Of a DNA stretch of 64,000 nt, positions 43,759 to 63,700 are shown piece after piece (positions within the stretch are counted from its first letter, which is position 1; every line of letters starts with the position of its first letter). The DNA is taken from the NCBI GenBank assembly GCA_018457135.1, contig JAGGDU010000046.1, forward strand, positions 77,516 through 141,515, written 5' to 3'. The notes under the pieces are model-generated. The model was given only the letters and a program-made list of their open reading frames with translations, was not told where the DNA came from and did not search any database. The stretch is from Trichodesmium erythraeum GBRTRLIN201. Lineage in GTDB: Bacteria > Cyanobacteriota > Cyanobacteriia > Cyanobacteriales > Microcoleaceae. A program made the translations under genes and the position numbers.

Positions 43759-44399
43759 ACCTTTTCCTCCTAATATCCTTTTGTTATTATTATTAGCTTA
43801 TTAGTAACTTGATTTACCTAAGCTTAATTCTTACGATAATATTAAGACAAATTGAAGATTCTGTCTATCAATATTATATATTTGGTTTTATCAACCTAAT
43901 AGTTAAAAATGGGACTCATCAACCCCAATTAAAGGCCATATTTTAGAAATGATCCATACTGAGAATAGGCTCAAAAATTATGATTAATGAGGTTAGAATT
44001 CAGAGGTCACCATAAATTGGAATTAATTAGGAGGTAGTCCGATATATTTGTCCCTTCATCTTTTGTGCAATTATTCGGTCCCTAATAACAACATAAATGA
44101 GCAAGAGCCAGCCAAAAGGTAGAACTTTTTCCACCGAAAAAGATACTTGTTAATGTCAGTCAATGCTTTTAGATTTAATCAGTAAGCCCTAATTAATATC
44201 TGGGAAGATAGATCCAACAAGAGGCAACTAAAGAATTAAGGAATTATAAATTTTATTGCCAATCAAAATATCTGAAGGTTAGTTAACTGAAAGACTATAT
44301 TCCAAGGAAATAGACATAGAAATCCTTTCACCATTTGCGATCAACAGAAATATTTCACCACACAGTTCACTACTTATAGATTAAATCAAATAGTTATAA
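43759..44399. other. Intergenic with dispersed repeats
   Basis: 641 bases. GGAATTAATTAGGAGGTAGT and the next 40 bases (from about 44018) resemble text at 57088-57140. TTTTAGATTTAATCAGTAAG (44167) belongs to the dispersed TTTAATCAG motif family. No gene recognised. Confidence 0.5.
44165..44200 (+). repeat. Dispersed TTTAATCAG motif
   Basis: TTTTAGATTTAATCAGTAAGCCCTAATTAA-type text. Related copies are near 18507, 23117 and 57231, with weaker ones near 50355 and 59545, each at the end of a region rich in GTAAA and A/T text. All are intergenic. Confidence 0.55.
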
Positions 44400-44471
<72 letters not shown>

Positions 44472-44918
44472 TCACATACTTAATAAGAATAGCATAGCCA
44501 TTAGGAACATTGCAAGAGTTTTCCGAAAAAAATTCAGATTTTGTGAAAAGTTTTGACATCTTCTCCAAACTTTAGGGACGGAAACTACCGTATCACTTCT
44601 TTTTGAGTTATCTGACCAGAAGACCTAGGCTCTAAATTAACCAGACGATCACCTGTATTGAGAGAATTATCAGGAGCATCATTCTATAATTATTTTCAAT
44701 AAAAATCCAGGTTTTGAATAGCAACCTTGTTATTCGTCTTTGGATATGACCAAAAATTAGTCTTAAGGTTTGTAAAGGTCAATCCTAACAAGGAGGATAA
44801 TTTTTACATAGAACTGAGAAAATGGGCTCTCAAAAACAATATAGCCAAAACTACAACAAATAATAAATTAAACCCAGGGTCAAAATAGAAACAAATTCGA
44901 CCCAAAACTGGCCAGGCT
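44472..44918. other. Intergenic, nothing recognised
   Basis: 447 bases between tRNA-Lys and the FG-GAP-like gene; the divergent promoters should be here. Confidence 0.5.
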
Positions 44919-45794
44919 TTGCTTGGTGTAGTGATAGTTATCATAATGTTTGTTGTCCCAATACAAAAATTTAATGCTACTTCAGCACCTATCACTATAT
45001 TCACAGACTCAGGGCAAGCTTTTGGGAATTCTAAGAGCTCAGGTATAAGTTTAAGAGATGTGAATGGAGATAAAGAATTTGATGCTTTTGTTGCTAATTT
45101 TGACAATCAACCTAACAAAGTTTGGTTTAATGATAGTAATTTTACATTCACAGACTCTAAGCAAACTTTGGGGAATTTTTATAGCTTAGGTGTAAGTTTA
45201 GGAGATGTGGATGGAAATAATGACCTTGATACTTTTGTTACTAATACTAGGCAACCTAACAAAGGTTGGTTGAATAATCTCGATCCATCTCCCATTTGTA
45301 ACAATACATCTGCGAACAAAGTTGTTAATGGCAGCTTTGAAGAACCTGAAATCTATATTTGTCAATTATCGAAAGAATCAATCAAGGGTTGGAATTTGGT
45401 TGAGGGACCATATATCGAACTTGATAGTTCAAAGATCGTTAAACCATACGATGGCTCACAAGTTTTGGATCTAGATAGTATAAATGCAAGAACTAAAATT
45501 TCTCAGAAAATTTCTACCGTACCACCGAAGACCTACAAATTAACTTTTGCCTATCAAGCTACTAATAATCTTCAGGCAGAAGTCGAACATTAAAAACTCA
45601 ATGTATATTTTGGAAATGAATTAGTTGATGCCATTGATGAATTTGACAGTAATACTGAATGGCAGGAAAAAACTTATGACCTAACAGTTGAAAGTGACCA
45701 AACAGTTCTCAGCTTTAATCATCTAAATGAGGAAATAGCTAATGGTTTCGGCATTCGTCTTGATGACATTACTCTGAAAAAATGTCGAAAATAA
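44919..45794 (+). pseudogene. Secreted FG-GAP/VCBS-like plus DUF642-like protein with one in-frame stop
   Basis: The frame starts at TTG 44919 (or ATG 44946) with a hydrophobic signal-like segment. Two FG-GAP-type repeats follow (ISLRDVNGDKEFDAFVAN, then VSLGDVDGNNDLDTFVTN), each with a Ca-binding DxNGDxxxD pattern. A galactose-binding-like domain comes next (VVNGSFEEPE, IKGWNLVEGPYIEL). A TAA at 45591-45593 stops it after 224 codons, but the same frame continues as KLNVYFGNELVDAIDEFDSN to GFGIRLDDITLKKCRK and a TAA at 45794. That last part completes the DUF642-like fold. Either a recent nonsense mutation or readthrough. Confidence 0.75.
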
Positions 45795-45882
45795 AATCAG
45801 TAAAAAGCCCAAAATTGACTACAAAATTTTTAGCTTTTTTTGTACTTCCTATCATTAGGGTTGATGAAGATTAGTTAAAATT

Positions 45883-45921
45883 AAAAAGCCTGTGTAAAAG
45901 CTCCGAAGACACAGGCTTTTT
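45883..45921. terminator. Bidirectional intrinsic terminator
   Basis: AAAAAGCCTGTGT pairs perfectly with ACACAGGCTTTTT around a 13-base loop. It sits between a plus-strand gene and the minus-strand CapA gene and can serve both. Confidence 0.88.
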
Positions 45922-46188
45922 ATTTGTTAAAGGCAATGTACACAAATGAAGTCAAAGTCAAGGATAAAGATAATTACAGTAGTTAAAAAAAACTATTAAT
46001 ATCTATTAGTTAAATGAGAAAAAGTGAATTAAACTGTTAATTGGATTGATTGAAATTTGGTAAATTTTTGGAAATATACCGTAAGTATTAGTGCCAAATT
46101 CATTACACATCTCTTCTACTTTTGAGAATAACAAAACACAAAGAGTAGGACTACTAGCAGTTAGTTTTTGATATTTGTATAACCTTAA
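45922..46188. other. Intergenic, nothing recognised
   Basis: Short AT-rich gap after the bidirectional terminator. Confidence 0.4.
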
Positions 46189-47955
46189 TTAAATTTGTAA
46201 ACGAGGCAATTCAATAAAAGGTTCTTTGATAAATGGCTTTTTAATGAAAGGATCTATTCTTTCTTTAGGAGTGGGTGCAGGACTTAATATTGGTGGTAAA
46301 GAAAAGCTATTATTATTATTACTTGCTTCTTGCTCTGAATTATTATGAGAAGAGCTTGTAGGATTTGGATCAGCTTGTGGAGATTTTAGAGGTAACTCAG
46401 GTAAAATTGGAGTTGAGAAAGTTTTAGAATTTTCTTCCCTAGGAAAAGAGTCAATACCAACAAAATTAAAATCATCATTTATCGTATTTATTATTATAGG
46501 AGTTCTCATTGGCTGGTGAAAAATACTAGAAATTTGAGCAATGTGTTTAAGAATTTCTTTACCTTTTTCACCTTTGACAATGTGGGGTTGGTACTTACTA
46601 ACCACTACAGGCAAAAACTCAATCTTCATTTTTCCTGGTTTTAAAGATACCTTCAAAACTGCTGTGTCATAATCACTCTCTTTGTTAGAAGTGTCTCCAA
46701 AAATAAAATTTCCCAAAGAATATATAATAGGTCGTCCCCGATAAATTTCTGCCCCCTGCAATACTTTAGGATGATGTCCTACTACCAAATCAGCACCTTG
46801 GTCAATTGTCATCCTCGCTATATTCATCTGCCAATCTCCAGGATATTCTGAGAGTTGAACCCCCCAATGATAATTAACAATTATCCAGTCTACCTGCTTC
46901 TTCAAAATTTGAATATCTGAAGAGAGCCTATCCTTATTCCGACTATTTACATATACTGATTCAGTAGTTGGTTGAATATCTGTATCATAGTAATTGAGAT
47001 ATGCAATCTTTTGGCCTTTAACTTCAAAAATTTTTGGCCTTCTAGCCTCTTCTTCTGTTTTGCCCGCTCCTAAAGAATGAATACCCGCATTCTCTAAAGT
47101 TTCTATTGTCTCTAACAAACTTTTTTGCTCATAACCCAAAGTATGGTCATTAGCTAAATTTACCAGATCAACTCCTCCTGAGGTTAATGCCTTAACATAA
47201 CTAGGATTTACCGTTGATTTTTGTTGCTGAGTTCTACTGTTGAGAGTAGAACGGGTCAAAGGACTTTCCAGGTTAACTATTGATAAGTCTGCAGCCCTAT
47301 ACTCATTCATTTTAGCAAAAGGTAACTTATAATCTCTCTTTACTAAATTAGAAACTTGGTTAGATAAATTAACATCTCCACCAAACATTAAAGTCACCAT
47401 AGGATCCTGGGAGTTTTGTACCTTTCTATGCTCCACAACTCTCACCTTTTCTATAGCAGTTTCTACCCATTGACCTGAGGTTGAATTTCGTACCAAAACA
47501 CTATAATAACTTACTAAAATACCTATAATGAAAGCTGCAACCGCTGAACTGAGTAAGATCAAATAACGAAATGTTTGAAATTGCAAATTATCACTTTTGT
47601 TTACAAAATTAGATTGCTTATTGAAATTTTTTTTTGCATGAGAATTAATTCTGACAGAGTGTTTCCATAGTATATTAGGTGAACCACTTAAACGCCCCAC
47701 AATTTTTACTTTTTCTAGTGTAGGATAGTTAAGTTGAGAAAGTTGATAACAGATAAACTTAATTAATCTATCTACAGGAGGTTGAGTCTGAAACTCTACT
47801 AAAACTTCTAGATATCCAGTATTTTCTTTAGCTATACGAGCTGAAATTCCTTGAGGTTTAAGTTTTTTATTAATCCATTGACTAATTGCCTGAAAATCAC
47901 CGGAACTTGCTAATTCAAAAAGAGATTTTTGAGTCAAATTAGGTATGTAATTCAT
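46189..47955 (-). CDS. CapA-family (poly-gamma-glutamate synthesis-type) protein
   Basis: 588 aa. Residues 1-100 form a small alpha-beta domain of unknown role. A transmembrane helix follows at about 130-150 (LILLSSAVAAFIIGILVSYY). The PGA_cap metallophosphatase-like domain spans about 188-440, with TLMFGGDVNLS, SIVNLESPLT, LANDHTLGY, IVNYHWGVQLSEYP, VGHHPKVLQG and YSLGNFIFGD. The C-terminus is a Pro/Ser-rich tail with repeated IKKPFIKEPFIELP. CapA-like proteins bind cell-surface polymers; the N-terminal anchor fits an extracytoplasmic domain. The exact substrate is unknown. Confidence 0.85.
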   Translation of the reverse strand: MNYIPNLTQKSLFELASSGDFQAISQWINKKLKPQGISARIAKENTGYLEVLVEFQTQPPVDRLIKFICYQLSQLNYPTLEKVKIVGRLSGSPNILWKHSVRINSHAKKNFNKQSNFVNKSDNLQFQTFRYLILLSSAVAAFIIGILVSYYSVLVRNSTSGQWVETAIEKVRVVEHRKVQNSQDPMVTLMFGGDVNLSNQVSNLVKRDYKLPFAKMNEYRAADLSIVNLESPLTRSTLNSRTQQQKSTVNPSYVKALTSGGVDLVNLANDHTLGYEQKSLLETIETLENAGIHSLGAGKTEEEARRPKIFEVKGQKIAYLNYYDTDIQPTTESVYVNSRNKDRLSSDIQILKKQVDWIIVNYHWGVQLSEYPGDWQMNIARMTIDQGADLVVGHHPKVLQGAEIYRGRPIIYSLGNFIFGDTSNKESDYDTAVLKVSLKPGKMKIEFLPVVVSKYQPHIVKGEKGKEILKHIAQISSIFHQPMRTPIIINTINDDFNFVGIDSFPREENSKTFSTPILPELPLKSPQADPNPTSSSHNNSEQEASNNNNSFSLPPILSPAPTPKERIDPFIKKPFIKEPFIELPRLQI

Positions 47956-49643
47956 ATTTTAGATATTGTAAAGTTTTTCAACTTGTTGTATTCACCAACT
48001 TATCTTTAAGTTATAGAAGCAAAGAAATCATGTTTGTATAACTATAAAATTTGCCAATTAAAAACATATTATACTGTGGTACTTTCAACTTTTGGGCTAA
48101 AAACATTAATATCTTTATAAGCTGAGATTAGGAACTATGATGTTATTTGAAATGAAAAATACCATAATTTCTCAGTAAGCATTCAGCTGTCAGCTATGAG
48201 CTATTAAATCATTCTATTTGGAAGAGTGAATTAGTATCCAAAGAGAATTAAAAAGTTATGTTTGCAAAGCATTCTATATTCCATTTGCCCTGCATTTTGT
48301 TTGCTTCCTATTCCCTATGTTAGGAAAGTAGAGGAAAGGATAGAAAATGTAATTGGTCATTGGGTAACCTTGGTAGTTGCTTGGCAGTTATTAAAAAGTG
48401 CTCGAGCTAATTGCTAATAGCTGAATACTTAAATTTCTCAGATAAGTTTAATCAAATATTAAGTGAGGAGAAGTTATTAATTCAATGAACAAGGATGAAT
48501 ATTGTAGACTTTTGACCTGGAAAAGTTATACTAAATCTATCATAGTGAAAGTATGGCTAATTATGAAAAAGTTAGAGAATATTTGTCAAGCGTGCCTCAC
48601 ACTTTATCTATAGATTGATAGTAACTTTGACTTCATAAAGTATTTTCATAGTTAAAAATTTTTCTCTGACGACAATAAATAGAAGCAGTCTTGTTTGAGA
48701 GGGTATTTTTTTCAAGTTACAGCCCGTGCTAAATTAATAATTGGGCCATAAAAAAAGCCTACTGTTATATCAGCATTTTGTTTGAGTTGTGTTCTGAAAA
48801 AAAAAGATTATATTGGAAGATGAATAGGGTGGTTTCTTATGGAATCCTCTTTAAACTATGGCTTTGTTAACAGTTTATGAAGTCAAAATTTTGAGTATAT
48901 TTAGTATAATAGTAAACGTAGTTAAGAACTTAATTATAATTTGCTCGCTTTAGCTAAATAAAATGAAAAAGCTGTAAAAATAACTACAAAGTTTGACCTG
49001 AAATAATTTTCACAGATAATTCATTGTAAACAGCTTTTTGCACCCTTTGTATAGATAATCAGAATGTTGATGAAAATTTGACTATAAAAGCAAAGTTTCT
49101 GTACTAACAAAAGATATTAATTTGCCTTGGACTAAAAAAACAAAACTATTAGGCCATATAGGCATCAACCCATAGAGTATGGCAATCAATATCATGATTC
49201 TATCAAAATGCTATTTTAGTTGTAATCTTTTGCTGGTGCTGAAGAATTAGGATCCAGTAGTCATAACTTCAATATTTTTAGTTAAAACTAGCTATTATAA
49301 AAATTGTCATAACCAATGATCAGATTGCTATATTACATTTATTCATGCTAATATAGAAAAAAAGTGGGTTCTAAGTTACAACTTATTATAATAAACTTTA
49401 AGTAAATATAAGAAACCAGAAATTTATTTTAATAAGTTTTTTTTGGATAGTCAACAGAAAATATTCATAGATTTCAGAAAAGACAAACAAAAGTGGATAA
49501 ACTGTAAAACTATCTATCTATAAAAAATGATACTAACCCCTGATCAAGCTTTAACCCACTGAAAAGTTAAAAACAAGAAAACCACTGCACTAGAGGTGTA
49601 GTGAATATGTCAACAAATTATTAATTGGGAGTGTAACTAGCCA
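47956..49643. other. 1.69-kb intergenic region
   Basis: No gene recognised on either strand. Text such as CAGCTGTCAGCTATGAGCT (48189-48207) is of the short repetitive type seen between genes in this genome. It may hold decayed DNA. Confidence 0.5.
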
Positions 49644-49958
49644 ATGCTACAACGCAAGATATATCAACTTTGTTGCGATGGTCGTGAGGTCTGTATTTTC
49701 TTGCGAGACCAGCAGCGTTGGATTGAGAAAGCAAAGATATTAGACATAGAGGGAGATTTAGTAACAATACGTTATGAAACAGATGAAGAGGATGAAATCT
49801 GTTCTTGGGAAGAAATGGTGCGTTTAGAAAGTATTGGGGCTATTACCCAAAAGTTAGCCTCTGTTCCCAAGGCTGATATTGACCTTCTAGTATCTGAAGA
49901 TTGTCCAGAAGCTGAACAAATTCGCAATCAGTATCCAGAATCCAATCAACAGGAATAA
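49644..49958 (+). CDS. Conserved cyanobacterial hypothetical protein
   Basis: 104 aa. The first 75 residues look like a small beta-rich domain (REVCIFLRDQQRWIEKAKIL, then VTIRYETDEEDEICSWEEMV), with some resemblance to Sm-like or KOW-like barrels. The tail is acidic. The SWEEMVRLESIGAITQKLA segment looks conserved among cyanobacteria from memory. No function can be given. A ribosome site (GGGAGTG) lies just upstream. Confidence 0.68.
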   Translation: MLQRKIYQLCCDGREVCIFLRDQQRWIEKAKILDIEGDLVTIRYETDEEDEICSWEEMVRLESIGAITQKLASVPKADIDLLVSEDCPEAEQIRNQYPESNQQE

Positions 49959-50377
49959 TACATAATGGGAATAGACGATTTATGACTAAGTTATTTTGGC
50001 TAAGTATGTTAACACACTCGTTTTGTTTTTTATGATACATTAGTTTGAGTAATGCTCAACCTTGAGAAAAATTTCAAAAAATTACGAAACTAAGATTTTC
50101 TCAATGGATGTTTTCCCAGATGTGAGAGGGAGAAATTCTGAAAAATTAATATGCTATAACTATTACCTATTGCTCATTCTCTGCCAAGGGCAAAAGTATC
50201 TTGTTAATAAACTGTGGGCTATTTTAATAAGCTCTGGTTTATCAGGTTTGTTGAGAATATACTTTTCAATTACGATATTTATTTAATTTGAAAAACACTA
50301 CATATAAGAATCAGTAAATTAGATTGTTGTCCCCTAATTCTCTGGCTTCACTATTAAACTTTTTCAGCAAACCCTAA
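49959..50377. other. Intergenic, nothing recognised
   Basis: 419 bases between convergent genes. The 74-codon plus frame inside it has no protein character. A weak copy of the AACCCTAACTAGTTAG-type dispersed motif lies at 50370. Confidence 0.45.
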
Positions 50378-51997
50378 CTAGTTAGTTTTATCTGTTTCTT
50401 CAGTAGAAGGAAAATGAAAATGAACTGACTCAAACATGGGACAATATCCATCAAATGTTACCTTAAAGCCATATAAAGCTGAAACAGGATTAGAACAACG
50501 TTGTCCTCGGTAATGTAAACAATTACCACAACAATTTAAATCAGGAGAGCTCAAGCGGTCAGTGGTTTGACTAAGAAGTTCTCGTTGAGATATTCCTCTA
50601 ACAACTAGCTCTTCTCCTTGCCAACGAACTTCTACAAGACCTGTATCAGAGAAAGTTGACCAACGACTATCATTTGTAATGCTTTGAGGTAAAGAAATTA
50701 TTACCTCTGTGTTTAATTCATTTAATTCCCCTTCATAATTAGTTTCTAGTGATGTAGGTACTATAAACGTCTCACCTATTGGTAAATCTACTAATGTACC
50801 ATTAGCTGGAGAGTGTAATTGATAACGGTTGCGTAACTCTTCAAGGTTAGTTAAGTCAGCTAAATAACTAGGAGAGCCATTAACAAAAATGACATGTTGA
50901 GGACGTAAGTTATGAATTAACTGTGTTGTACCAAGTCCATCACAATGATCAGTGAGAAGGTATGTTTCAGTATAAGCAAAATCTAATTCCTGTGATGTTT
51001 TTCCTGGTTGTTCCGGCAGTAAGATAAGAACAGAATTATCTTGATTAATAATGTATTGTCTCAAATCAGTATCCTTGTCTGCAATAAGGATATAAGGTAA
51101 TTCTTTGTCTGGCAATTTTCCGGGCGATCGCCTCAGTACACGTGGTTTGACTTTTTCATCCCAAAATAGAGGTTGATGTTGAGCAAAATTTTGTACAGTT
51201 GTGGGAAATTGGGGCAATAGTTGTAAATAAAGGTCACAACCTCTAGCCACCTTTTCCTCTACCCAAATATCCAGATCGCGACCTGTGAAATAATGATGAC
51301 TGCGTAGAAGCATTAACAATTCTTGCCCTAACCCTAAAGGGGGAGTGGGCAAGATAACTGAAGTTCCAAAAGCAATAGCTTCATATATCCTTTCTGCAAG
51401 GTTGTTTTCTAATTGTCGCCTATGTGGATAATGGGCTGTGCCATAGCTACCTTCAACTATTAATACATCTAGCTTGAGTCCTCGTAAGTATGCTAAAGGG
51501 AGACCTTCAACTAAACGGCTTTTAGATAAAAAGAAATCTCCCGTGTATAAAAGCTTATAGGTTCGATTTCCTTGAGTATAGGTGAGTAGAAAAGCTGTTG
51601 CCCCTGGTAAATGACCAGCAGGAAAAAGCTCTACAGTTAGACCACTACAAAGTTCTATTGGTGAGTGCCAAGGTAGAGGTTGACAAAAATCAGGGACTTC
51701 ACAAATAGTAAGTTCTGGCCAATTTAGAGGTAGAAGTTTAGTTGTTGCCTCGCTAGCATATATTGGCAGATCTGGAAAGCTTCGGTGAAGTGCTAATAGT
51801 CCTTGAGCATGATCTGAATGTGCGTGGGAACACAATACAATATCAGCAGGTAGTTGTTGTTTTGTTTCATTAGTTAATAATGAAATATTTGTAATACCAC
51901 AATCTAATAAAATCCGGTGTATTCCAATGCGAACTAGCAGACATATTCCATCATCTGCGTGACCTACACTGTAAGCTAAACATTCTAAATTTATCAC
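50378..51997 (-). CDS. MBL-fold metallo-hydrolase (beta-CASP/RNase J-like layout)
   Basis: 539 aa. The metal site is HAHSDH at residues 58-63, with further ligands in PAGHLPGA, LYTGDF and a late TDHCDG histidine. The middle (about 190-340) resembles the beta-CASP insert, and a KPRVLRRSPG link follows. The C-terminus has four clustered cysteines (CCGNCLHYRGQRCSNP and GYCPMF), unusual for RNase J or CPSF-like enzymes and probably a structural metal site. Nucleic-acid processing is likely from the family, but the substrate is unknown. Confidence 0.78.
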   Translation of the reverse strand: MINLECLAYSVGHADDGICLLVRIGIHRILLDCGITNISLLTNETKQQLPADIVLCSHAHSDHAQGLLALHRSFPDLPIYASEATTKLLPLNWPELTICEVPDFCQPLPWHSPIELCSGLTVELFPAGHLPGATAFLLTYTQGNRTYKLLYTGDFFLSKSRLVEGLPLAYLRGLKLDVLIVEGSYGTAHYPHRRQLENNLAERIYEAIAFGTSVILPTPPLGLGQELLMLLRSHHYFTGRDLDIWVEEKVARGCDLYLQLLPQFPTTVQNFAQHQPLFWDEKVKPRVLRRSPGKLPDKELPYILIADKDTDLRQYIINQDNSVLILLPEQPGKTSQELDFAYTETYLLTDHCDGLGTTQLIHNLRPQHVIFVNGSPSYLADLTNLEELRNRYQLHSPANGTLVDLPIGETFIVPTSLETNYEGELNELNTEVIISLPQSITNDSRWSTFSDTGLVEVRWQGEELVVRGISQRELLSQTTDRLSSPDLNCCGNCLHYRGQRCSNPVSALYGFKVTFDGYCPMFESVHFHFPSTEETDKTN

Positions 51998-52661
51998 AAG
52001 GTTAAACTGCTTGCGTCTAGGAAAACTTTAACTATTAATAAAATTGAATTTTTGGATATATTAAACTTAAGAAATATGAACGAAAATACCATATAAATAC
52101 AAGCTAAAGTTAGCTAAATTGACGTTTAATGTCTTGAATTGCAAGTTTAGGGAAGCAGTATTTTTAGGTAAAAAATAAATATACAAAGTTTATTTATTCT
52201 TAAAAAATCAAAAGATTGAAGGCATCTTATCTTTGCTTTATTGAAAATTAATACAATTAAAATATATTATATATTATGCATTGTTTTCAATAATAATTTT
52301 ATTAGCTAGCAAATCATATAATCTTCCATTCTGCTATTTTTAACTAAAAATTGCTAAATATTCAACTGTAAAAAGAATATACTAGCTTAATTGGCTAGTT
52401 TACGATCTTTGCTCAGAAAATATCCAGTGTACATTTGTATATAGTTAAAAAACTTTATAATTCTTTATAATTAAGAGTATTGTGGCGGTGTATATTCCAG
52501 AAAAGTATAAAGCTTAAAAAAATAGGCTCATAAATTCATACAATTCTTCGTTCTGCCGACAGAAGAGATTTGAGTAATGAGCCGGACTTTTTTTTTAGTT
52601 TTGTAACTAAAAAATATATTTTTTTTCAGTAAACCTTGTTGTCACCTAGGAGATAGTTCAA
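51998..52661. promoter_or_regulatory. cpeC upstream region
   Basis: 664 bases between a divergent MBL gene and cpeC. A near direct repeat CTTTATAATTC / TTTATAATTAA lies at 52453-52473. The last 140 bases contain the terminator-like leader structure listed separately. No TTGCACA-type L box was found by eye. Confidence 0.5.
52525..52614 (+). promoter_or_regulatory. Candidate transcription attenuator in the cpeC leader
   Basis: GGCTCAT (52525-52531) pairs exactly with ATGAGCC (52577-52583). The inside continues with an imperfect stem capped by TTCTG-CCGA-CAGAA. Four bases later come nine T (52588-52596), the layout of an intrinsic terminator about 65 bases before the cpeC ATG. The T tract is also the 5' arm of a perfect 10-pair hairpin, TTTTTTAGTT / AACTAAAAAA. 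The four-base gap before the T run is a weakness. A ribosome site, TAGGAG, lies further down at 52647. Confidence 0.6.
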
Positions 52662-53531
52662 ATGGTTTTTGGACCTGCATCTCAGTTAGGGGTTAGCCTT
52701 TTTGAAGATACAGAACCCGTAGAGCTCTTACCCGGACGCTCATCAGAAGAAATAGAAACTGTGATTCGAGCTGTCTATAAGCAAGTTCTAGGCAATGCTT
52801 ATGTCATGGAAAGTGAAAGACTCACTGTACCAGAGTCTAAACTTAAAGAAGGCACAATTACTGTCCGTGAATTTGTACGTCAAGTTGGACGCTCTGACTT
52901 GTATCGTTCTCGGTTCTTTGACCCTTGCCCCCGCTATCGTTCAGTTGAGTTAAATTTTAAGCACTTTTTAGGTCGTGCTCCCGATGGCTACGATGAAATG
53001 AAGCTTCACAGTAATCTTCTGGATGAAGGAAGTTTTGAAGCTGATATTGATTCCTACATTGATAGTGATGAGTATAGTAGTGCTTATGGAGAAAATATTG
53101 TTCCTTATTATCGAGGTTACAAAACCCAAACTGGTAAAAAAATGGTTGGTTTTACTCATATCTTCCAACTATTACGGGGGGCTTCCAGCAGCGACTTAAA
53201 AGGAAGTTTATCTGGAAACAGCCCTGCTTTAAATAAATATGTGATTCAAGAAACACCTTTAGCAGTAGTTCCTCCTTCTGGGGGTTCAGATGGTTGGTCA
53301 TTCCAGGATACACCTTTGGGTGCTAGAAGTAGACATGGAGTCGGAGCTAGTTCTAGTGGTAAAGTTTACCGCGTTGAAGTAACAGCTTATCGCTCAAAAG
53401 TAGTAAATCGTGTTTCTAGATTCCGCCGTAGTAATCAAGTATTTTTGGTACCTTTTGATCAACTTTCTAAAGAGTATCAAAGAATTCATCGGCAGGGTGG
53501 TGTAATTGCAAGTATTACTCCTATTAGTTAG
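52662..53531 (+). CDS. cpeC: Phycoerythrin-associated rod linker CpeC
   Basis: 289-aa rod linker of the phycobilisome. The N-terminus MVFGPASQLGVSLFEDTEPV is of the CpeC type. The PBS-linker domain (about 20-180) has IRAVYKQVLGNAYVMESERL, VREFVRQVGRSDLYRSRFF, ELNFKHFLGRAPD and GENIVPYYRGY. The C-terminal CpcD-like domain (about 232-285) has VYRVEVTAYRSK, FRRSNQVFLVPFDQLS and GGVIASITPI. It joins phycoerythrin hexamers at rod positions. It heads a cpe gene group and its leader may carry an attenuator. Confidence 0.93.
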   Translation: MVFGPASQLGVSLFEDTEPVELLPGRSSEEIETVIRAVYKQVLGNAYVMESERLTVPESKLKEGTITVREFVRQVGRSDLYRSRFFDPCPRYRSVELNFKHFLGRAPDGYDEMKLHSNLLDEGSFEADIDSYIDSDEYSSAYGENIVPYYRGYKTQTGKKMVGFTHIFQLLRGASSSDLKGSLSGNSPALNKYVIQETPLAVVPPSGGSDGWSFQDTPLGARSRHGVGASSSGKVYRVEVTAYRSKVVNRVSRFRRSNQVFLVPFDQLSKEYQRIHRQGGVIASITPIS

Positions 53532-53787
53532 GGGTTAAAATTAGAAAATTATTTACTCATATTTCCTGAGTTTTTTTTAGTTGCTAGGTTCATAAAAACT
53601 AAAAATGAGGTTATTACTCTTTAGTAATAATATCTAGGATAAAAAAGGGTACAATTTTTGAATTAATTTGTAGTAGTTTATAGTTGGTAGTTATTCATTT
53701 TGTACTTTATGGATGAATGGCTGTGAGCTATAAACACTGCAAAAATAGTATAAAAAAATCATAATCTTTGATTTGAGAGGAGTTAAA

Positions 53788-54549
53788 ATGTCACTTTGGG
53801 TAGAAAAAATCGATCCAATAGAACTACGTTGGAATGCAACACAAGATGAAAAACAAGCTGTAATTAGAGCTGTTTATAAGCAAGTTTTGGGAAATATCCA
53901 TGTAATGGAAAGCCAGCGTCTAATTAGCGCCGAATCATTGTTCATAGGTGGAGAATTTTCTGTCCGTCAATTTGTTAATATGGTTGCTCAATCAGACTTA
54001 TATTTCTCCTTGTTTTTTGAATCATGTTCTCCTTATAGATTTGTAGAACTAAACTTTAAGCATTTGTTAGGTCGTGCCCCCCAAGACCAGGCAGAAATTT
54101 CTCAACACATTTGTATATATAATGAAAAGGGATACGAAGCAGAAATTAATTCTTACACAGACAGTTATGAGTATCTTCAAAACTTTGGGGAAAACATTGT
54201 TCCATATCCACAAGGTACTAGTACTGTAGTTGGGATGAAAAATATCACATTTAATAGGACATTTGCTTTGGAACGAGGAAATGCTACAAGTGATAGAAAC
54301 AAACCTTCCCAATTGACTTTAGATTTAGGTGCTAATTTGAGCACAAAGATTCAAAAACCTGCTACTGTAGGTGGGCCGTATAATAACAGAGTTAAACGTT
54401 TCCAAATCTCAGTTACCAAAACTGGTATTGGGCCTGTTGTGAAGAAGAGCGCGACAACTTATACAGTATCTTACGAACAGTTAAGTTCAAAAATCAACAG
54501 TATCCAAAGAACAGGTGGTAAAATCTTAAAAATTACTGAGGTTCCTTAG
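53788..54549 (+). CDS. cpeD: Phycoerythrin-associated rod linker, CpeD/CpeE type
   Basis: 253 aa from MSLWVEKIDPIELRWNATQD. The ATG at 53788 has an AGAGGAGT ribosome site; an in-frame ATG five codons earlier does not. PBS-linker domain: IRAVYKQVLGNIHVMESQRL, VELNFKHLLGRAPQDQAE, GENIVPYPQG. The CpcD-like tail ends TGGKILKITEVP. The shorter N-terminus and KIDPIELR place it with CpeD or CpeE, not CpeC. In the Fremyella order cpeCDESTR the second gene is cpeD, so D is used here, but CpeE is possible. Only one such linker follows cpeC. Confidence 0.85.
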   Translation: MSLWVEKIDPIELRWNATQDEKQAVIRAVYKQVLGNIHVMESQRLISAESLFIGGEFSVRQFVNMVAQSDLYFSLFFESCSPYRFVELNFKHLLGRAPQDQAEISQHICIYNEKGYEAEINSYTDSYEYLQNFGENIVPYPQGTSTVVGMKNITFNRTFALERGNATSDRNKPSQLTLDLGANLSTKIQKPATVGGPYNNRVKRFQISVTKTGIGPVVKKSATTYTVSYEQLSSKINSIQRTGGKILKITEVP

Positions 54550-54580
54550 ACCAAAATTTAAGAACCTGCAAGTTATTCTT

Positions 54581-54655
54581 GAAAAGACCCGGTTAGTCGC
54601 GAAAATATGGCGGGATATAGTTGTCCTAAAATACAAAGAAACCGGGTTTTTCTTT
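54581..54655 (+). terminator. Terminator after the second cpe linker
   Basis: GACCCGGTT pairs with AACCGGGTTTTTC around a roughly 48-base loop. It separates the linkers from the lyase gene, so the lyase may have its own promoter or depend on readthrough. Confidence 0.65.
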
Positions 54656-54746
54656 GGAGTAAGTTTCAATTTTGATTTTATATTCAACTACAAAATAGTA
54701 TCTTCTTTTATCAATATCACTTTAAATAATTTTAAAAATAGCAATA

Positions 54747-55268
54747 ATGGATATCGAAGAATTTGTTGAACGTTCTATAGGATGTTGGCGATCTCAACGC
54801 AGTGGCCACAGTTTAGCATTGAGTCATTTTGAAGAAGTTCGTTCCACAATAGATATTGTTGATTTACCAAAAACTGATCATGAAGTAAAAAATTTATGTG
54901 ATTCTAGTGGAGTAGATATAGAGAATGCTGTCTCTCCTTTTAAGATGAGTTGGGAAGGAGAATCAGATTGGGATGAAAATGAGATTATTAAAGGTAGTTG
55001 TGTCCTAGTACCAATACCTGAAGATGATAATCTAAAAAAAGGCAAATTATTACGTTCCCAAGGTTATGCAGAGACTGTTTCTGCTGTTGGAGAATATTAC
55101 ATTACTGAAGATGACACTTTTGTTCTATATACAGAATATGAAAGTGCTGCTGCGGAAGAAAAAATTTGGTTCCATACTTCCAATCTTAGGTTTAGAGTAT
55201 CGTTGATTAAAACGAGTGATGGTAATGGTGTATTAACTGCTTCTTTTTCATCAGAAATTCGTTCTTGA
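54747..55268 (+). CDS. cpeS: CpeS/CpcS-family (S-type) bilin lyase
   Basis: 173 aa with the lipocalin-like fold of S-type phycobilin lyases, which attach bilins to the conserved Cys-84-type site of phycobiliproteins. Typical segments: FVERSIGCWRSQRSGHSLAL near the N-terminus, MSWEGESDWDENEIIKGSCV, the central EDDTFVLYTEYESAAAEEKI, and the final SFSSEIRS. Position next to phycoerythrin linkers favours CpeS. The wider family includes CpcS and CpcU, which form a pair for phycocyanobilin. Confidence 0.82.
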   Translation: MDIEEFVERSIGCWRSQRSGHSLALSHFEEVRSTIDIVDLPKTDHEVKNLCDSSGVDIENAVSPFKMSWEGESDWDENEIIKGSCVLVPIPEDDNLKKGKLLRSQGYAETVSAVGEYYITEDDTFVLYTEYESAAAEEKIWFHTSNLRFRVSLIKTSDGNGVLTASFSSEIRS

Positions 55269-56577
55269 TCAACTGAATAAAAATAATTTGTAAAATAATC
55301 GCAATAGTTAATTAGCTAGGTACAAATAATTTTGACTACATAACACAGTTTTTTTGAGATAAAACTTTTGATATTGCTTGGTGTATACTCAGTTATAGTA
55401 ACTGTGAGACATAGTTACATCTAATTATACTTAGATAACCAGATAAATAGGGCTTGCTGATAAAAAACTTGAGAATAAAAAGAAAAAAATTAACAATAAA
55501 GAGGGAATAAGGTAAATATTTACCATACAGCATACAAGAAAAACTTGAATAACTTAATTACTCTATCTAGTTAGATTACAGGATAATTTAGTAATCCAAA
55601 ATCACCTTTTTTCAAATCAGACTCTTTATGCTAATATTTATGTTTTTTATGACCTGGGTCACAGACTTTTTTTCTGGTATAGGTTTTTGTTAAGAACAAG
55701 TTAATAGCTTATAATATCTGGATTATATATCGTAAAGGGGTACTTAAACTAATAAATAAAGGGAATCATATTTAGATCAAAAACTATAGTGTTAAAAACC
55801 CAATTATTTGTACATATAAATCACGATAACTTGATTTATTGCATACTATTTATTGAACCAAAAATTATTAAGAAAAAAATATAGGGTTAGCTCATATTAA
55901 AAATTGTTGAAAAATAGTATCTTTTATTATCCTATTGTCATGAAAGGTTTTTAGGTTAATTTAGTAATGAAAATACATTCCAATTGTTAAGCCGTAAAAA
56001 CCGATAGTATGAAAATTATGTGACATTTCTAGTTCCTGTAAAAGCTTGTATTGCAAACAGGTTAGAAAAATATTGATTTGTCAATAAAATTGTGGATGAG
56101 CTTGCCCTGTAAAAAAATATAGAATATTGTTGAAACTATTCTATAGTTTATGTTTTTTCTAAATGAGATGGAAAAATATTTTTCGGTAAGTATTTTTAGG
56201 GGGGTGTTGAATCAGAAAATAAATGTTGAATTAATAATAGAAGATAGGATACTTATCTGCTTAGTAAAGTAGAGTAAGCTGAAAATATATGGGTTAGCTT
56301 AGATATGGTTCTGAATGTTAATCAAATGAATAGATATAGGGTTCAGCAGCAAAACTACTTAAGTTTGAAAAACAAACAAATTTTGTTAATGAGTTACCAA
56401 ATACTAATAAGTAGTTAGACAAAATTATTTTCATGTTTACTATTGAGTTATGTTCTGATTTTTTTTATTAGCTCTTTCCCCAACCCTTAGGGATCCACAA
56501 TGTATAGTTAATTTTGTCTAGGTACTTCAAAAACTAAAGGTAGCAGCAATGAAATAGTGTTAGGGAGCTAAAATAAA
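55269..56577. other. 1.3-kb gap inside the cpe gene group
   Basis: No CpeT-like or other frame is visible between cpeS and cpeR, though cpeT lies there in Fremyella. The DNA is AT-rich with stops in all frames. If cpeT was once here it has been erased or moved. Confidence 0.55.
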
Positions 56578-56883
56578 ATGTTGCCACCAACAGCAGAGAA
56601 AAAATTACAGGGTTGGATCAGAAGTCGCCATATAATTTGTTCTGGAAATTTTTTTTTATTTGAAACTGTAGAGTATTCTACTATTGATAGGTTTACAGTA
56701 TGTGTTCGAGCCTTGGGTGGGAGTTTGATATCTGTCAAACCTATTAAGAAAATTTGGATTGGTAATCATAGAAAAGTGGTTCTTTATCAAGCGAAAGCAA
56801 GTCTCCATACACCTCACCACGATTTAAAACAATATTGGGTCAAGTATGGTGGTTTTTATACCAGATTTGATGAACGAGGTTGA
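56578..56883 (+). CDS. cpeR: CpeR, phycoerythrin operon activator
   Basis: 101 aa, the size of CpeR. The whole sequence recalls CpeR: the N-terminus MLPPTAEKKLQGWIRSRHII, the middle IKKIWIGNHRKVVLYQAKAS and the end HTPHHDLKQYWVKYGGFYTR. CpeR is needed for cpeBA expression in green light in Fremyella diplosiphon, where it ends the cpeCDESTR operon. Here it follows cpeS after a 1.3-kb gap, so it may have its own promoter. Ribosome site AGGGAGC. Confidence 0.82.
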   Translation: MLPPTAEKKLQGWIRSRHIICSGNFFLFETVEYSTIDRFTVCVRALGGSLISVKPIKKIWIGNHRKVVLYQAKASLHTPHHDLKQYWVKYGGFYTRFDERG

Positions 56884-57321
56884 TAAAGTTTTACTAGTAC
56901 GTTTGATACCGAAACTGGTTGCCAAAAATTTCTTTTTATACCGGTTACTTGTACTTAGTTAGTAGTAGGTTAATCATAAAAAAATTAACTATCTTATCTA
57001 GGATATCAGAATGCTTTAATTAGGGTGTGCTACAAAAACTTTTTTAGGGAATAGGAAGTAAGGAGTTAGAACTCAGAAGTCAGGAGAATTAATTAGGAGG
57101 TACTCGGGTATATTTATTCTTTGATTGTTCTGTCCTCTAGAACTAAAAATACTAATATCCGTGACTTTGAGCAACTGAAAAGCTGGAAATTTTGTTTTGA
57201 GGTAAAAAGTGTAAAGCCTCTATCTGTAAAATCTTTGAGATTTAATCAGCCAACCCTAATTAATTAAGGAATACTATTAAAGGGTATACTAGAAAAGGTA
57301 TGGTGGCCAAGGAGAATGTAA
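56884..57321. other. Intergenic with dispersed repeats
   Basis: 438 bases. TAAGGAGTTAGAACTCAGAA and the AATTAATTAGGAGGTACTCG stretch (57088) resemble 44018. The run from about 57165 to 57262 resembles 59487-59574 and ends in the TTTAATCAGCCAACCCTAAT motif. Confidence 0.55.
57165..57262 (+). repeat. Dispersed repeat, about 100 bp, copy 1
   Basis: CAACTGAAAAGCTGGAAATT to CAACCCTAATTAA. Its second copy is at 59487-59574. Shared blocks: AAAxCTxGxAATTTT, GAxGTAAAAAGT, CTCTxTCTGTAAA and the final TAATCAG/TAATAAG motif. Confidence 0.5.
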
Positions 57322-58965
57322 ATGACGAAAAAACGTGGTAGTGCCACCTCTTATAGAGAAACCAAGGTTAAAGTAGGTGTGTCTCTTACTCCCACTAGCG
57401 CTGAGAAGCTAAAAGAAGTAGCAAAAGAACTTGGATTATCAAGGTCTGAGCTACTTGAGCGTATTGCTAGAGGAGACCTTGCTGTTTTGAGAGAGGCGGC
57501 ACAGATAACAGCGAATTTAAATAATCAGTTGGTTCCAGTCAACAATGTGCTGGGTAAAAATGAACTCCCTGAAAGTGGTATAGATGTTGTGACAATTCCA
57601 GAACCATTAAATGAGTCTGTAGAAGCACAATATTTATTATCAGAAAGTTATCAAATTTTACAACAAGAGTTGGAATCTCAGATGGCACAGGTTAAGCATT
57701 TGGAAAAGCAAATGGTTAATATGGTGTCAAAAGAAAGTTATGAAACTTTACAAAAACAATTAGAAGAAGATAAGAAAGAAATTACAAGTTCTCGCCAAAA
57801 GTTAGCTCAACTCAAGCAATTAGAAGAGCAAGTGGCTTTAATGATACCAAGGGAAAGCTACAAAACTCTAGAGCAAGAGTCTCAAGAGCAAAAATTGCAA
57901 TTGGAACTTTTGGAAGAGCAAGTAGGTTCAATGGTGCCCAAAGAAATTCATGATTCTTTGCAGTACCAGTCACAACAGCAAGAAACTCAAATTCAACAAC
58001 TAGAATTACAAGTAGCTTCTATGGTTTCCCAAGAAGTATACGAAATTCTACAACAAGAGTCTCAAGAACAAAAAGTTAGGTTACAACTGTTAGAAGATCA
58101 AGTAGCTTGTATGGTGTCTCAAGGAGTTCATAATTCCTTGCAGGAACAGTCACAACAGCAAGAAACTCAAATTCAACAACTAGAGTCACAAGTAGCTTCT
58201 ATGGTGTCCCAAGAAGTATACAAAATTCTACAGCAGGAGTCTCAAGAACAAAAAGCGAAGTTGGAGCTGTTGGAAGAGCAAGTAGATTCTATGGTGTCCC
58301 CAGAAATTCACGATTCTTTGCAGCAGCAGTCACAACAGCAAGAAACTCAAATTCAGCAACTAGAATCACGAGTAACTTCTATGGTGTCCCAAGAAGTATA
58401 CAAAATTCTACAGCAGGAGTCTGAAGGACAAAGAGTCAAGTTGGAACTGTTGGAAGAGCAAGTAGCTTGTATGGTGTCCCAAGAAATTTATAATTCTTTG
58501 CAGCACCGATCACAGCAGCAAGAAACTCAAATTCAGCAACTAGAATCACAAGTAGCTTCTATGGTTTTACACGAAAGTTATGATGCTTTGCAACGTCACT
58601 CAGAAGAACAGGAAAATAAGTTGCAAGACCTAGAAGAACAAGTGGCCACAATGGTGACTAGAACAGTCTATGAGACTTTGCAAAAACAGTTACAAGAACA
58701 AGTGAATAACTTGCAATACATGGAATCTATGCTTGGTTCAATGATATCCCAGCAAACCTATGAAGCTTTAAAAAAAGAGTCAGAATTTCAAAAACAAATA
58801 ATTGCAGATTATCAAAATAAGCTGACTCAGTTACAAGAGAAGTATCATAGCCAATCTGAGCTATTAGAGACTTCTAAAAAAGAAGTTTCTCAGTTAAAAA
58901 CCCCAGCTATGATTGGAGAAAATCGATATCTTAACAAGTGGCAATATCGGACTTTTTCCAGATAA
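57322..58965 (+). CDS. Ribbon-helix-helix protein with 30-residue coiled-coil repeats
   Basis: 547 aa. Residues about 12-55 form a CopG-like ribbon-helix-helix DNA-binding domain (KVKVGVSLTPTSAEKLKEVA, then LGLSRSELLERIARGD). After a linker, about twelve 30-residue repeats run from about 128 to 490, of the type LEEQVASMVSQEVYxxLQ plus QESQEQKxxLEL. Alternating A and B units give an exact 180-base DNA period at 58021, 58201 and 58381 (and 57931, 58111, 58291, 58471). The repeats should form a long Gln-rich coiled coil. No partner gene is adjacent. A DNA-tethered filament or spacer is conjecture. Confidence 0.8.
   Translation: MTKKRGSATSYRETKVKVGVSLTPTSAEKLKEVAKELGLSRSELLERIARGDLAVLREAAQITANLNNQLVPVNNVLGKNELPESGIDVVTIPEPLNESVEAQYLLSESYQILQQELESQMAQVKHLEKQMVNMVSKESYETLQKQLEEDKKEITSSRQKLAQLKQLEEQVALMIPRESYKTLEQESQEQKLQLELLEEQVGSMVPKEIHDSLQYQSQQQETQIQQLELQVASMVSQEVYEILQQESQEQKVRLQLLEDQVACMVSQGVHNSLQEQSQQQETQIQQLESQVASMVSQEVYKILQQESQEQKAKLELLEEQVDSMVSPEIHDSLQQQSQQQETQIQQLESRVTSMVSQEVYKILQQESEGQRVKLELLEEQVACMVSQEIYNSLQHRSQQQETQIQQLESQVASMVLHESYDALQRHSEEQENKLQDLEEQVATMVTRTVYETLQKQLQEQVNNLQYMESMLGSMISQQTYEALKKESEFQKQIIADYQNKLTQLQEKYHSQSELLETSKKEVSQLKTPAMIGENRYLNKWQYRTFSR
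57931..58560 (+). repeat. 180-bp coding macro-repeat, about 3.5 copies
   Basis: Each unit has two 90-base halves (30 residues each), one with EIHDSLQ-like and one with EVYKILQ-like text. The copies at 58201 and 58381 share long identical stretches, so the array expanded recently. Confidence 0.88.
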
Positions 58966-59766
58966 TGTTAAATTATAAGAGAATAGATAATTTTTGGTAA
59001 ATATAGAAGTGTTAAGTTTTCAGCTTTGAAAATTTAAAACAAAGCCAAGAGCAGAAACCAATTATTTTTCTGAAAGCGACAAAATCTCTCCGCTAATTTA
59101 TGGATTTGATAAATTTAAAGTTCAAGCTGTCCATTGTCTACATGATCCACATAAGCTATGAAGCGGAGAGTACCTAAGTCGCCTGTTGAAGTATTTTTTA
59201 GGGGTGGGTTAGAGTATTTATAGGTTGAATATTTTTGATGGTAGGGGATTGAAAAAGTATTTTGAGGGAGTTTTTTGTAAGGATAAATTAAAATTATAGT
59301 TCAATACGGTTTACTTAAGGATTTTTTTCTGGGGCTTATCTAATGTGAATAATGACTTATTGTGGTGCCGTACTTTATGAGTCTTGAATATTATCTGAAC
59401 TTTATTGAATTATAGAGGAAATAGACGTAAGAATAGTACCTGAATTTTTATGCTCTTGTCTGACAAAACTGCTAATTTTTTAGGCTGTTTAAACTGAAAA
59501 CCTAGCAATTTTTGAAGTAAAAAGTCTTTTAGTCTCTCTCTGTAAATACTGTGAGAGTTAATAAGTAATTCCTAAATAAATGGGAATTGGGGGGGAAGAG
59601 GGAAATTTTGGTATAAGAATGAGGGTTTAATATTCCTTGTAATTAACGAGGGGCTTAATTGAGGATAAAGTCAAACTTTACCCAGACGACAAAGTTTTTT
59701 CGACCTAATTTACCTAATCAAGGATATTCTTGAATCCTGATTATTATCATTAGTAGGCAAAAAAAT
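58966..59766. other. 0.8-kb intergenic region
   Basis: Contains the second copy of the roughly 100-bp dispersed repeat (59487-59574). No gene recognised. The proV promoter should be near the end. Confidence 0.5.
59487..59574 (+). repeat. Dispersed repeat, about 100 bp, copy 2
   Basis: AAACTGAAAACCTAGCAATTT to AATTCCTAAATAA. See copy 1 at 57165-57262. Confidence 0.5.
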
Positions 59767-60990
59767 ATGAATGACAAAATAATTAATACAAATCCATTAA
59801 AGTCTAAAATAATTATACAAAATCTAATTAAAATCTACGGTAAAAAACATCGTGCTGCTCTTAAATTATTTCGGGAGGGAAAAACAAGGGACGATATATT
59901 ACAGTCTACAGGTAATGTTTTGGGATTAGCTGATGTATCTATTGATATTGGTACAGGGGAATTATTTGTGGTAATGGGGTTATCTGGTTCGGGAAAGTCT
60001 ACCCTAGTTCGCTGCATTAATCGTTTAGTTGATCCGACAAGTGGACATATTTATATTGATGGTGAAGATATTGCTCATGCTGATGAGAAACGGATGCGAG
60101 ATATACGACTGAATAAAGTTTCGATGGTATTTCAACGCTTTGGGTTATTTCCTCACAAAACAGTAGCGGAAAATGTAGAGTATGGCCTAAAGGTACGGGG
60201 GGTTTCAACAACTCATCGTCGTCAGAAAGCTTTAGAAACATTGGAGGTTGTTGGTTTAGAGAAATGGGCAAATTATCAACCTACTTCTTTGAGTGGGGGA
60301 ATGCAGCAACGGGTGGGTTTGGCTCGTGCTTTGGCGACTGATGCAGATATTTTATTGATGGACGAAGCTTTTAGCGCTCTTGACCCACTGACTAGGGGAG
60401 AGATGCAGGATGAATTGTTACGACTTCAGAAAGAATTGCATAAGACTATAGTTTTTATTAGCCATGATATGCAAGAAGGTTTGAAGTTGGGCGATCGCAT
60501 TGCGGTTATGAAAGATGGTGCAATTGTCCAATTGGGGACTCCTGAAGAATTAGTTACTAATCCTAAAAATGATTATATTAAGGCTTTTACTGAAGAAGTA
60601 AATTCAGCACAAGTTATTACGGTAGGGTCAATTATTAGTAAAAGAACTTCCCTGATAATTGGTCAAAATTCTGTTAGCTATGGTTTGGAGGAAATGTTAA
60701 AGGATAACCTTCAACTTTTGTATGTAGTTGATGAGTACAATAAACCTATTGGTTTGTTGAAAAGAGAAGGTTTGCAAGAGTTTATCAAACAGGGAGAGGA
60801 AGATTTTAGGGCAATTATGGAAACTGATTTTCCGATAGTCAATAGTTCTACTCCCTTGGAGGATATTTTTTACCTTTACAAACAGGGTTTTCCTCTGGCG
60901 GTGGTTAATGACAAAAAAGAATTTCAAGGTATGGTAGAGGCAGTTGATGTACTGACGAGTTTGGGAAAACCAAATAAAAATTATGGTTAA
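59767..60990 (+). CDS. proV: Glycine betaine/proline-type ABC importer, ATPase (ProV/OpuAA)
   Basis: 407 aa. Walker A is GLSGSGKST (71-79), Q-loop VFQRFGLFPHKTV (121-133), signature LSGGMQQR (175-182), Walker B ILLMDEAFSALDP (195-207). The N-terminal KNxIKIYGKKHRAALKLF-type helix and GKTRDDILQSTG insert mark the ProV/OpuAA family. Two CBS domains (about 275-400) end the protein; in this family they can sense ionic strength. The next gene supplies permease and binding protein. Its last 80 bases are repeated at 61252-61330. Confidence 0.93.
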   Translation: MNDKIINTNPLKSKIIIQNLIKIYGKKHRAALKLFREGKTRDDILQSTGNVLGLADVSIDIGTGELFVVMGLSGSGKSTLVRCINRLVDPTSGHIYIDGEDIAHADEKRMRDIRLNKVSMVFQRFGLFPHKTVAENVEYGLKVRGVSTTHRRQKALETLEVVGLEKWANYQPTSLSGGMQQRVGLARALATDADILLMDEAFSALDPLTRGEMQDELLRLQKELHKTIVFISHDMQEGLKLGDRIAVMKDGAIVQLGTPEELVTNPKNDYIKAFTEEVNSAQVITVGSIISKRTSLIIGQNSVSYGLEEMLKDNLQLLYVVDEYNKPIGLLKREGLQEFIKQGEEDFRAIMETDFPIVNSSTPLEDIFYLYKQGFPLAVVNDKKEFQGMVEAVDVLTSLGKPNKNYG

Positions 60991-61354
60991 ACCAGTAGTT
61001 GATACTTATACTTTATGAGGGTAGAAAATTTTGGGAAAAACTTTTCGAATTCTAAGCTTTTGTTACTCTTAAGTTGACCAACATTCTTGTAAAAAGTGTA
61101 TGTGCTAGAAGCCAATTCTTGTTAATACTTTGAGTTTTGAGATTAAGTAATCTTTTGAGAATAACTGTGTATTTTTCATGGAGACTTAGCTAAAGGATAT
61201 TGTTGATTTTCACAATACTTGGGTTTCCGCACTTGAGTTGTTAACTACAAAAAAAAGAATTTCAAGGTATGGTAGAGGCAGTTGATTTACTGACAAGTTT
61301 GGGGCAACCAAATCAAAATTTGGATTAAACCAACATTACAGGAGCTAGTCAATT
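60991..61354. other. Spacer between proV and proWX with a proV 3' fragment
   Basis: 364 bases, an unusually long gap for an ABC operon. The part from 61252 to 61330 is a copy of the proV end. Confidence 0.7.
61252..61330 (+). pseudogene. Duplicated 3' end of proV
   Basis: It reads KKEFQGMVEAVDLLTSLGQP, then NQNLD and a stop, against KKEFQGMVEAVDVLTSLGKP, then NKNYG at the end of proV, 341 bases upstream. The bases after the stop (TAAACCA) match as well. The short fragment has no start or role. Confidence 0.9.
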
Positions 61355-63580: not shown

Positions 63581-63700
63581 TTAGCTACCCCACTTAAGTC
63601 GTAAAACATTAACATCCTGCTGTACAATAACTATACAATTACGGAATTCAGTAGGTAAAATCTGGTAATGCCATTCAAAGATATTTGCTTCTTGCTTCAA
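63581..63700 (-). pseudogene. Short protein-like remnant
   Basis: The minus frame reads FEWHYQILPTEFRNCIVIVQ, then QDVNVLRLKWGS and a stop. It looks like a C-terminal piece of a real protein but is cut by a stop just upstream and has no ATG. A competing plus frame (63668-63820, 50 codons) is less protein-like. The family is not recognised. Confidence 0.3.

Follow-up and report, generated by a model that had tools for sequence, protein, structure and literature searches.

The region upstream of cpeC, a phycoerythrin linker gene of Trichodesmium erythraeum GBRTRLIN201, is predicted to be transcribed into a folded 5' leader that may control the cpeC-operon mRNA at the RNA level, perhaps by capping its 5' end, a reading to which we give a probability of roughly 0.4. 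Three things are shown computationally: the leader is predicted to fold, the Trichodesmium/Okeania clade retains this fold, and the two stem arms match each other across clades. On our reading, the selected part of this leader is the closing stem of its hairpin rather than the run of T that caught attention first. The hairpin is conserved in the relatives while the T run is not, and the leader is probably a real control element. The window, meaning the whole stretch of DNA that was analysed, comprises 64,000 nucleotides of a 7.2 Mb genome (G000).

Layout and predicted fold of the cpeC leader

An earlier note on this DNA had described a hairpin closed by GGCTCAT and ATGAGCC, with nine T (T9) four bases further on and about 65 bases before cpeC, and had claimed that the T run is also an arm of a second, perfect 10-pair hairpin (hairpin 2). 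Both structures are found in the sequence as described (Table 1), the distance from the end of T9 to the ATG being 65 bases. The 101-aa protein encoded downstream of the lyase has no Pfam or NCBIfam match, and we take it to be CpeR-like. The 1.3 kb between cpeS and its gene (55269-56577) hold neither a clear gene nor a cpeT-sized frame; Fremyella has cpeT at the position corresponding to this gap.

Table 1. Features of the cpeC leader and its neighbourhood, in window coordinates
Feature	Position	Strand	Basis and remarks
Divergent metallo-hydrolase gene	50378-51997	-	upstream of cpeC
HLR1-like direct repeat GTTAAAAAACTTTATAAT	52444-52461	+	upstream of the P1 -10; 14/16 consensus positions, p 0.017 against segment shuffles
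Tandem CTTTATAATT repeat	52453-52472	+	sequence reading; the HLR1-like repeat runs into it
-10-like TATATT of putative promoter P1	52491-52496	+	sequence and cross-locus likeness; putative transcription start ~52503
Long imperfect hairpin, variable top	52506-52605	+	fold prediction, alignment, model R1
Closing stem of the long hairpin	52506-52514 / 52597-52605	+	predicted fold
A/U stem of the long hairpin (A-tract with T-tract)	52516-52522 / 52589-52595	+	predicted fold
G+C stem, GGCTCAT / ATGAGCC	52525-52531 / 52577-52583	+	sequence reading
Short open frame ATG..TAA (MSRTFFLVL) with its start codon on the 3' arm of the G+C stem	52577-52606	+	possible leader peptide, weak
GGAC spacer, G+C stem to T tract	52584-52587	+	sequence reading
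T9 tract	52588-52596	+	7 of 9 T predicted to pair with the A-tract upstream; within the clade in this genome only (n=13)
HLR1-like 18-mer over the 3' arm of the closing stem	52590-52607	-	13/16, p 0.052; one good half site GTTACAAA
Hairpin 2, 10 perfect pairs, loop TTGT	52591-52614 (TTTTTTAGTT 52591-52600 / AACTAAAAAA 52605-52614)	+	sequence and fold
Shine-Dalgarno AGGAGA of cpeC	52648-52653	+	sequence; predicted unpaired probability of AGGAG 0.11
cpeC, phycoerythrin rod linker	52662-53531	+	PF00427 and PF01383
Second linker	53773-54549		downstream of cpeC; domain match
CpeS lyase	54747-55268		downstream of the second linker; domain match
101-aa protein, presumably CpeR-like	56578-56883		downstream of CpeS; relatives 66-71% identical on three cyanobacterial plasmids, called hypothetical

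The best predicted fold is one long hairpin into which the T tract is built, leaving no free tail. This fold beats dinucleotide shuffles, with -29.8 kcal/mol for 52504-52607, a z of -4.88 and none of 200 shuffles as good, and hairpin 2 by itself (-6.6 kcal/mol, z -3.15, 1/200 shuffles as good) also stands beyond its shuffles. Among 134 leaders sampled from the same genome, the core of the cpeC leader has the lowest folding z (-4.5), and its 5'-to-3' pairing ranks third highest. It is also the only one of 134 ORF leaders, in 261 kb of the genome, to carry a 7-pair stem with at least 4 G/C and a loop of at most 60, followed within 6 nt by at least 7 T, a definition set post hoc. Applied to both strands of these 261 kb, the definition gave 13 end positions, where 10 first-order Markov shuffles averaged 0.6; by our count they amount to 7 distinct sites, two of which are the two strands of the cpeC-leader hairpin. 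A terminator scan of 44001-64000 (loop of at most 8, tail 0-2 nt from the stem) returned 11 sites where 9.4 were expected, and the cpeC-leader site was absent from them.

Hairpin 2 has one mismatched pair in 9 of 12 aligned sequences, and its covariation is no greater than in shuffles. A Shine-Dalgarno switch was dropped after deletion of the first 28 nt shifted the predicted accessibility in no single direction in 14 leaders. By eye, several clades carry a pyrimidine motif, TTCTCAG (TTTTTTTTCAG in the window), about 25-45 bases before the ATG, which could pair with the AGGAGA of the ribosome site.

Inspection of other loci by eye revealed an ATTCTT.AT.ATT box followed by a TGTATAAA-like -10 upstream of cpeC in Microcoleus, Oscillatoria, Symploca, Moorena and others, and the same box with a -10 of this kind in Calothrix L044/L045 and in L141/L142. 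This promoter-like element, P1, appears to be common to several families; from its placement we infer a transcription start near 52503, which would put the hairpin inside a leader of ~159 nt. A second promoter candidate past the hairpin, TATATT/TACATT at ~52615, was seen by eye in some leaders only, and is not among the stronger promoter predictions listed for the region (34 weaker ones lie beyond that list).

The T tract and the terminator reading

The cpeC leader shares with intrinsic terminators the succession of an A-tract, a G+C stem and a T-tract; unlike theirs, its plus-strand tail lies 4 nt away, is mostly paired with the A-tract and is unconserved. Indeed, no U-rich tail directly follows the G+C stem on the plus strand, where the sequence reads GGAC, T9 and AG. 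The tail score, calculated with a TransTermHP-type formula, is 2.07 where the background averages 2.34. Among random positions this ranks at the 44th percentile, and the tails of the relatives lie at the 34th-35th. Conservation fails as well, T9 being present in 1 of 13 members of the clade, the window genome, with TTTTTCAG (T5CAG) after the G+C stem in 11 of the 12 relatives and AAATTTG in one, L019 (AATAAATTTG). On the T-tract comparison and the tail scores, a terminator was rejected as a conserved feature, and the terminator reading of the cpeC leader is weak. What survives of the terminator-like leader put forward earlier is a hairpin that apparently lies inside a real leader and whose structure is kept by close relatives; the T9, found in one genome of 13, and the plus-strand tail, at background level, do not.

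These results bear directly on attenuation, in which the GGCTCAT hairpin and T9 would end a share of the cpeC transcripts and a light-responsive Cgi/IF3-like factor would relieve the stop. We regard this as possible, if doubtful. The hairpin with T9 is real and rare among leaders of the genome, it sits downstream of a promoter-like element found in several families, and two linkers and the CpeS lyase followed by a CpeR-like gene are much like the Fremyella operon. Against this stand the restriction of T9 to one genome of the clade, the 4-nt spacer and the background tail score, and also the want of an antiterminator. Classical attenuation depends on a competing segment with which the terminator's 5' arm can pair instead. 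By inspection, the ~22 nt of A-rich RNA upstream contain no complement of that arm, and hairpin 2 cannot serve as a classical antiterminator because it lies downstream of the T tract; classical antitermination was rejected on these grounds.

The cpeC leader of Fremyella diplosiphon is reportedly under the control of the Cgi system (Bezy et al. 2011; Gutu et al. 2013), which works via IF3 (infCa), one of two infC genes in that organism. In G000 one infC was found (one IF3_C match), a point against attenuation here; a single IF3 could still act. The two leaders share the gene and the place, a leader hairpin, and a linker-lyase operon followed by a CpeR-like gene, and a predicted structured leader between a putative promoter and cpeC is what a Cgi-type attenuator calls for; unlike the Fremyella leader, the one studied here has no conserved plus-strand U tract. 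The leader studied here is a candidate, unproven member of the Cgi system, which a review (PMC4553884) names.

If the G+C stem is any terminator, its better tail points away from cpeC. On the minus strand, the tail TATTTTTTT comes directly after the stem and ranks, in all 13 clade members, within the 96th-99th percentile of background (98th in the window), against the 34th-44th on the plus strand. An opposite-facing or bidirectional terminator could stop antisense transcripts from entering the divergent metallo-hydrolase gene, the plus-strand likeness being a by-product. We nevertheless hold this to be distinctly improbable, as no antisense promoter is known, the A-tract has a second duty as the 5' arm of the stem, and the cross-clade arm matching described below would be left unexplained.

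Retention of the hairpin and matching of its arms

In the close clade, the CpeC protein of the window is 90-93% identical to those of the Trichodesmium/Okeania/Hydrocoleum loci L008-L018. Eight relatives folded alongside the window showed the same closing and G+C stems with differing tops, at z of -2.6 to -6.9. In the 12-sequence alignment A3, 94.9% of 395 pair cells are standard, a share that falls to 32-57% once partners are shifted by 1-3 columns. Compensatory changes, which the earlier note had proposed to look for, were few, with double changes in 2 of 33 pairs (a level also reached by 51 of 500 shuffles) and, according to RNAalifold on alignment A2, one double-change pair of 31; covariation within the close clade is therefore weak evidence. 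L009 was excluded from A2 and A3 on account of an insert of ~100 bases (approximately 209-309) within the 5' half of its leader hairpin; the short frame downstream starts with TTG in this locus. Larger, mobile-element-like inserts of ~625 and ~483 bases lie between P1 and the leader hairpin, at about the same site, in L016 (4004-4628) and L018 (4363-4845; both approximate), which are two different species and still keep the hairpin. The right end of these inserts is, we presume, of the IS200/IS605 type.

The alignments also speak to a leader peptide, that is, translation of the frame 52577-52606 in a way that couples ribosomes to the hairpin. The frame is open in 12 of 13 members of the clade (with a TTG start in L009 and a TAG stop in L014), and the length change in the window is 3 bases. 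A translated peptide would nonetheless be very surprising, given that the stem already dictates ATGAG and the 3' motif dictates GTTTTGTAA, that residues 3-4 vary and L019 has an internal stop, and that by eye there is neither a well-spaced ribosome site nor a common peptide in other clades.

A model of the leader, R1, gave one match in G000, the cpeC leader itself, with 150 of 17694 first-look candidates scored. Of 61 genomes of the family (40 of them with CpeC at the cut-off used), 13 gave a match, each time to the cpeC leader and directly upstream of cpeC (58 candidates scored per genome, stricter filters); these 13 are the genomes of three genera. Since 12 of these 13 genomes supplied the model, their matches arise by construction, the exception being G058/L009 (65 bits). 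In eight of the 13, R1 also picked up the opposite strand of the same hairpin as a weak mirror hit (E 0.06-0.5). In other clades R1 found only a weak match, in L028 at its own cpeC leader (E 1.2). The informative part of this search is the lack of further copies among the candidates scored in G000 and the family genomes, although a diverged copy beyond those candidates may have been missed. In a search of positions 44000-64000 of the window, no Rfam family matched the leader at E 1 or below, and none reached the gathering score in the loci of six relatives.

Beyond the clade, 138 leaders were gathered (111 distinct), a few of which, such as L051, L053, L056, L078 and L120, were short or did not line up with the start codon, and the pairing test was carried out on the 32 to which we had assigned a P1. 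In 16 of these, pairing between the 5' 40 nt and the segment ahead of the ribosome site reached the 0.05 level or better against 60 shuffles each. No 5'-to-3' pairing beyond shuffles was detected in Hormoscilla (3), Moorena (5), Calothrix L044/L045, L141/L142, L121, L021, L072 and L028. A stricter statistic over nine independent clades, each represented by one leader of our choice, as in the permutation and swap tests below, gave a combined p of 0.007 with three of the nine at or below 0.05: the window (0.020), Oscillatoria L049 (0.020) and Symploca L022 (0.007). Microcoleus-type L070 reached 0.126 and L028 0.19, and the other four exceeded 0.4.

In the swap test, the 5' 28 nt were paired with the -90..-40 segment of their own leader or of leaders from the other clades. 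Pairing with the own partner was 4.1 kcal/mol better than with swapped ones, with 0 of 1000 shuffles as good (shuffle mean -0.2, sd 0.84; two control segments +0.1 and -0.2), and the arm-matching permutation gave p 0.0003 with these first-chosen nine representatives. Random redrawing of the representatives, in seven runs of 60 draws each, gave mean differences of -2.8 to -3.8, median p values of 0.0015-0.006 and, in the worst draw, p 0.066; the first choice (-4.1) is stronger than the average random draw (-2.8). The full matrices also contain L019 (plus L010 for the stricter statistic) from the wider clade of the window; the combined p, the p of 0.0003 and the swap test exclude them, and the random-redraw run called 'None' omits L019, while the runs dropping other clades retain the window's group together with it. 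The own arm ranked 7 of 10 in its row for L044 and 3 of 10 for L030 and L071. A permutation over five clades picked after viewing the folds gave p 0.009. Where predicted, the stem starts no more than a few nt into the inferred transcript. Taken together, the pairing and swap results back the closing stem in several clades; elsewhere it is missing or different.

Other arrangements were seen upstream of cpeC. L136, L138, L139, L141 and L142 carry a AAATGTTAAGTTTATTAACGTTTT-type palindrome ~80-84 bases before cpeC, with pair-preserving changes by eye. Direct repeats of the CTTTCCGATTTCTTTACC type, which we assume to be akin to CcaR G-boxes, lie upstream of cpeC in L034, L039, L040, L042, L047, L100, L134 and L135, and in such clades cpeC control may go through a green-light response regulator instead.

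HLR1-like sites and the possible role of the leader

The 3' arm AGTTTTGTAAC resembles, in other clades especially, a site for RpaB (HLR1) on the minus strand. The HLR1 consensus, as given in PMC11633204, consists of two (G/T)TTACA(T/A)(T/A) repeats 2 bases apart. Just upstream of P1, HLR1-like scores reached p<=0.025 in 13 of 18 P1-bearing leaders, two of these matches (L014 and L019) sitting in another register; scores were non-significant in Symploca (2), Calothrix (2) and L024. In the proximal region, 14 of 30 chosen leaders had p<=0.05 on the minus strand versus 1 of 30 on the plus strand, same-clade leaders not being independent. The site inside the leader matches 14-15 of 16 positions in ten of the 30, all ten outside the window clade, whose own proximal site is degenerate (11-13/16, p 0.05-0.51 in five leaders). 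HLR1-type direct repeats upstream of P1 are thus a trait in common with elements bound by RpaB, as in other clades are those inside the leader, whereas the leader copy of the window, at 13/16 with one half site, departs from them.

These sites raise the question of whether AGTTTTGTAAC and the box upstream of P1 act simply as DNA operators for RpaB, with the RNA fold incidental. The counts upstream of P1 and on the proximal minus strand would agree with this, subject to the kinship of clade-mates, but the degenerate proximal site of the window clade would not, and the 5' arm, un-HLR1-like by eye, yet tracks the 3' arm across clades; operators alone therefore seem to us decidedly unlikely. Because AGTTTTGTAAC is also HLR1-like, conservation of the 3' arm does not by itself prove an RNA structure, and the case for one is carried by the matching of the 5' arms. 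An unlikely but broader idea is that phycoerythrin-linker operons carry an old cis element, a single set of 11 bases in it being at once an RpaB (HLR1) DNA site and the 3' arm of an mRNA stem that would close the leader right from its 5' end, with the Fremyella Cgi attenuator as one derived form. If this is true, a light-intensity regulator and RNA folding would meet at one spot.

Considering that inspection showed no antiterminator partner, that hairpin 2 follows the tract and that a ribosome-site switch is unsupported, we favour an effect on the finished mRNA over attenuation. Transcription from P1 would start near 52503, and the first ~20 nt would pair with 52589-52605 (the AGTTTTGTAAC arm), closing an imperfect hairpin of ~100 nt that would end ~55 nt upstream of the cpeC start. 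With its 5' end locked in a duplex, the finished mRNA would be less exposed to 5'-end-dependent decay of the RNase E type, and this reduced decay would set how much linker/lyase operon mRNA there is. The closing stem may itself be opened or bound by a protein. Both the formation of this fold in the cell and its effect on stability are put forward here as a model. It recalls the mRNA-stabilising 5'-terminal stems of the ompA type, which also have a stem at or near the (here putative) 5' end, enclose the leader, and are freer in sequence than in shape; it differs from them in that the 3' arm of the cpeC leader is under a second, HLR1-like sequence constraint. The inserts of L016 and L018, placed between P1 and a retained hairpin, fit poorly with a strictly 5'-terminal role.

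In conclusion, the analysis separates the conserved part of the leader, the closing stem, from the part seen only in this genome, T9. Were a leader structure common to several families, it would be a concrete place to ask if the RNA-level control reported for one laboratory strain is general. The products of the cpeC operon are phycoerythrin linkers and a lyase, and a CpeR-like regulator gene comes after it, so its leader can set green-light capture in marine Trichodesmium and Okeania.
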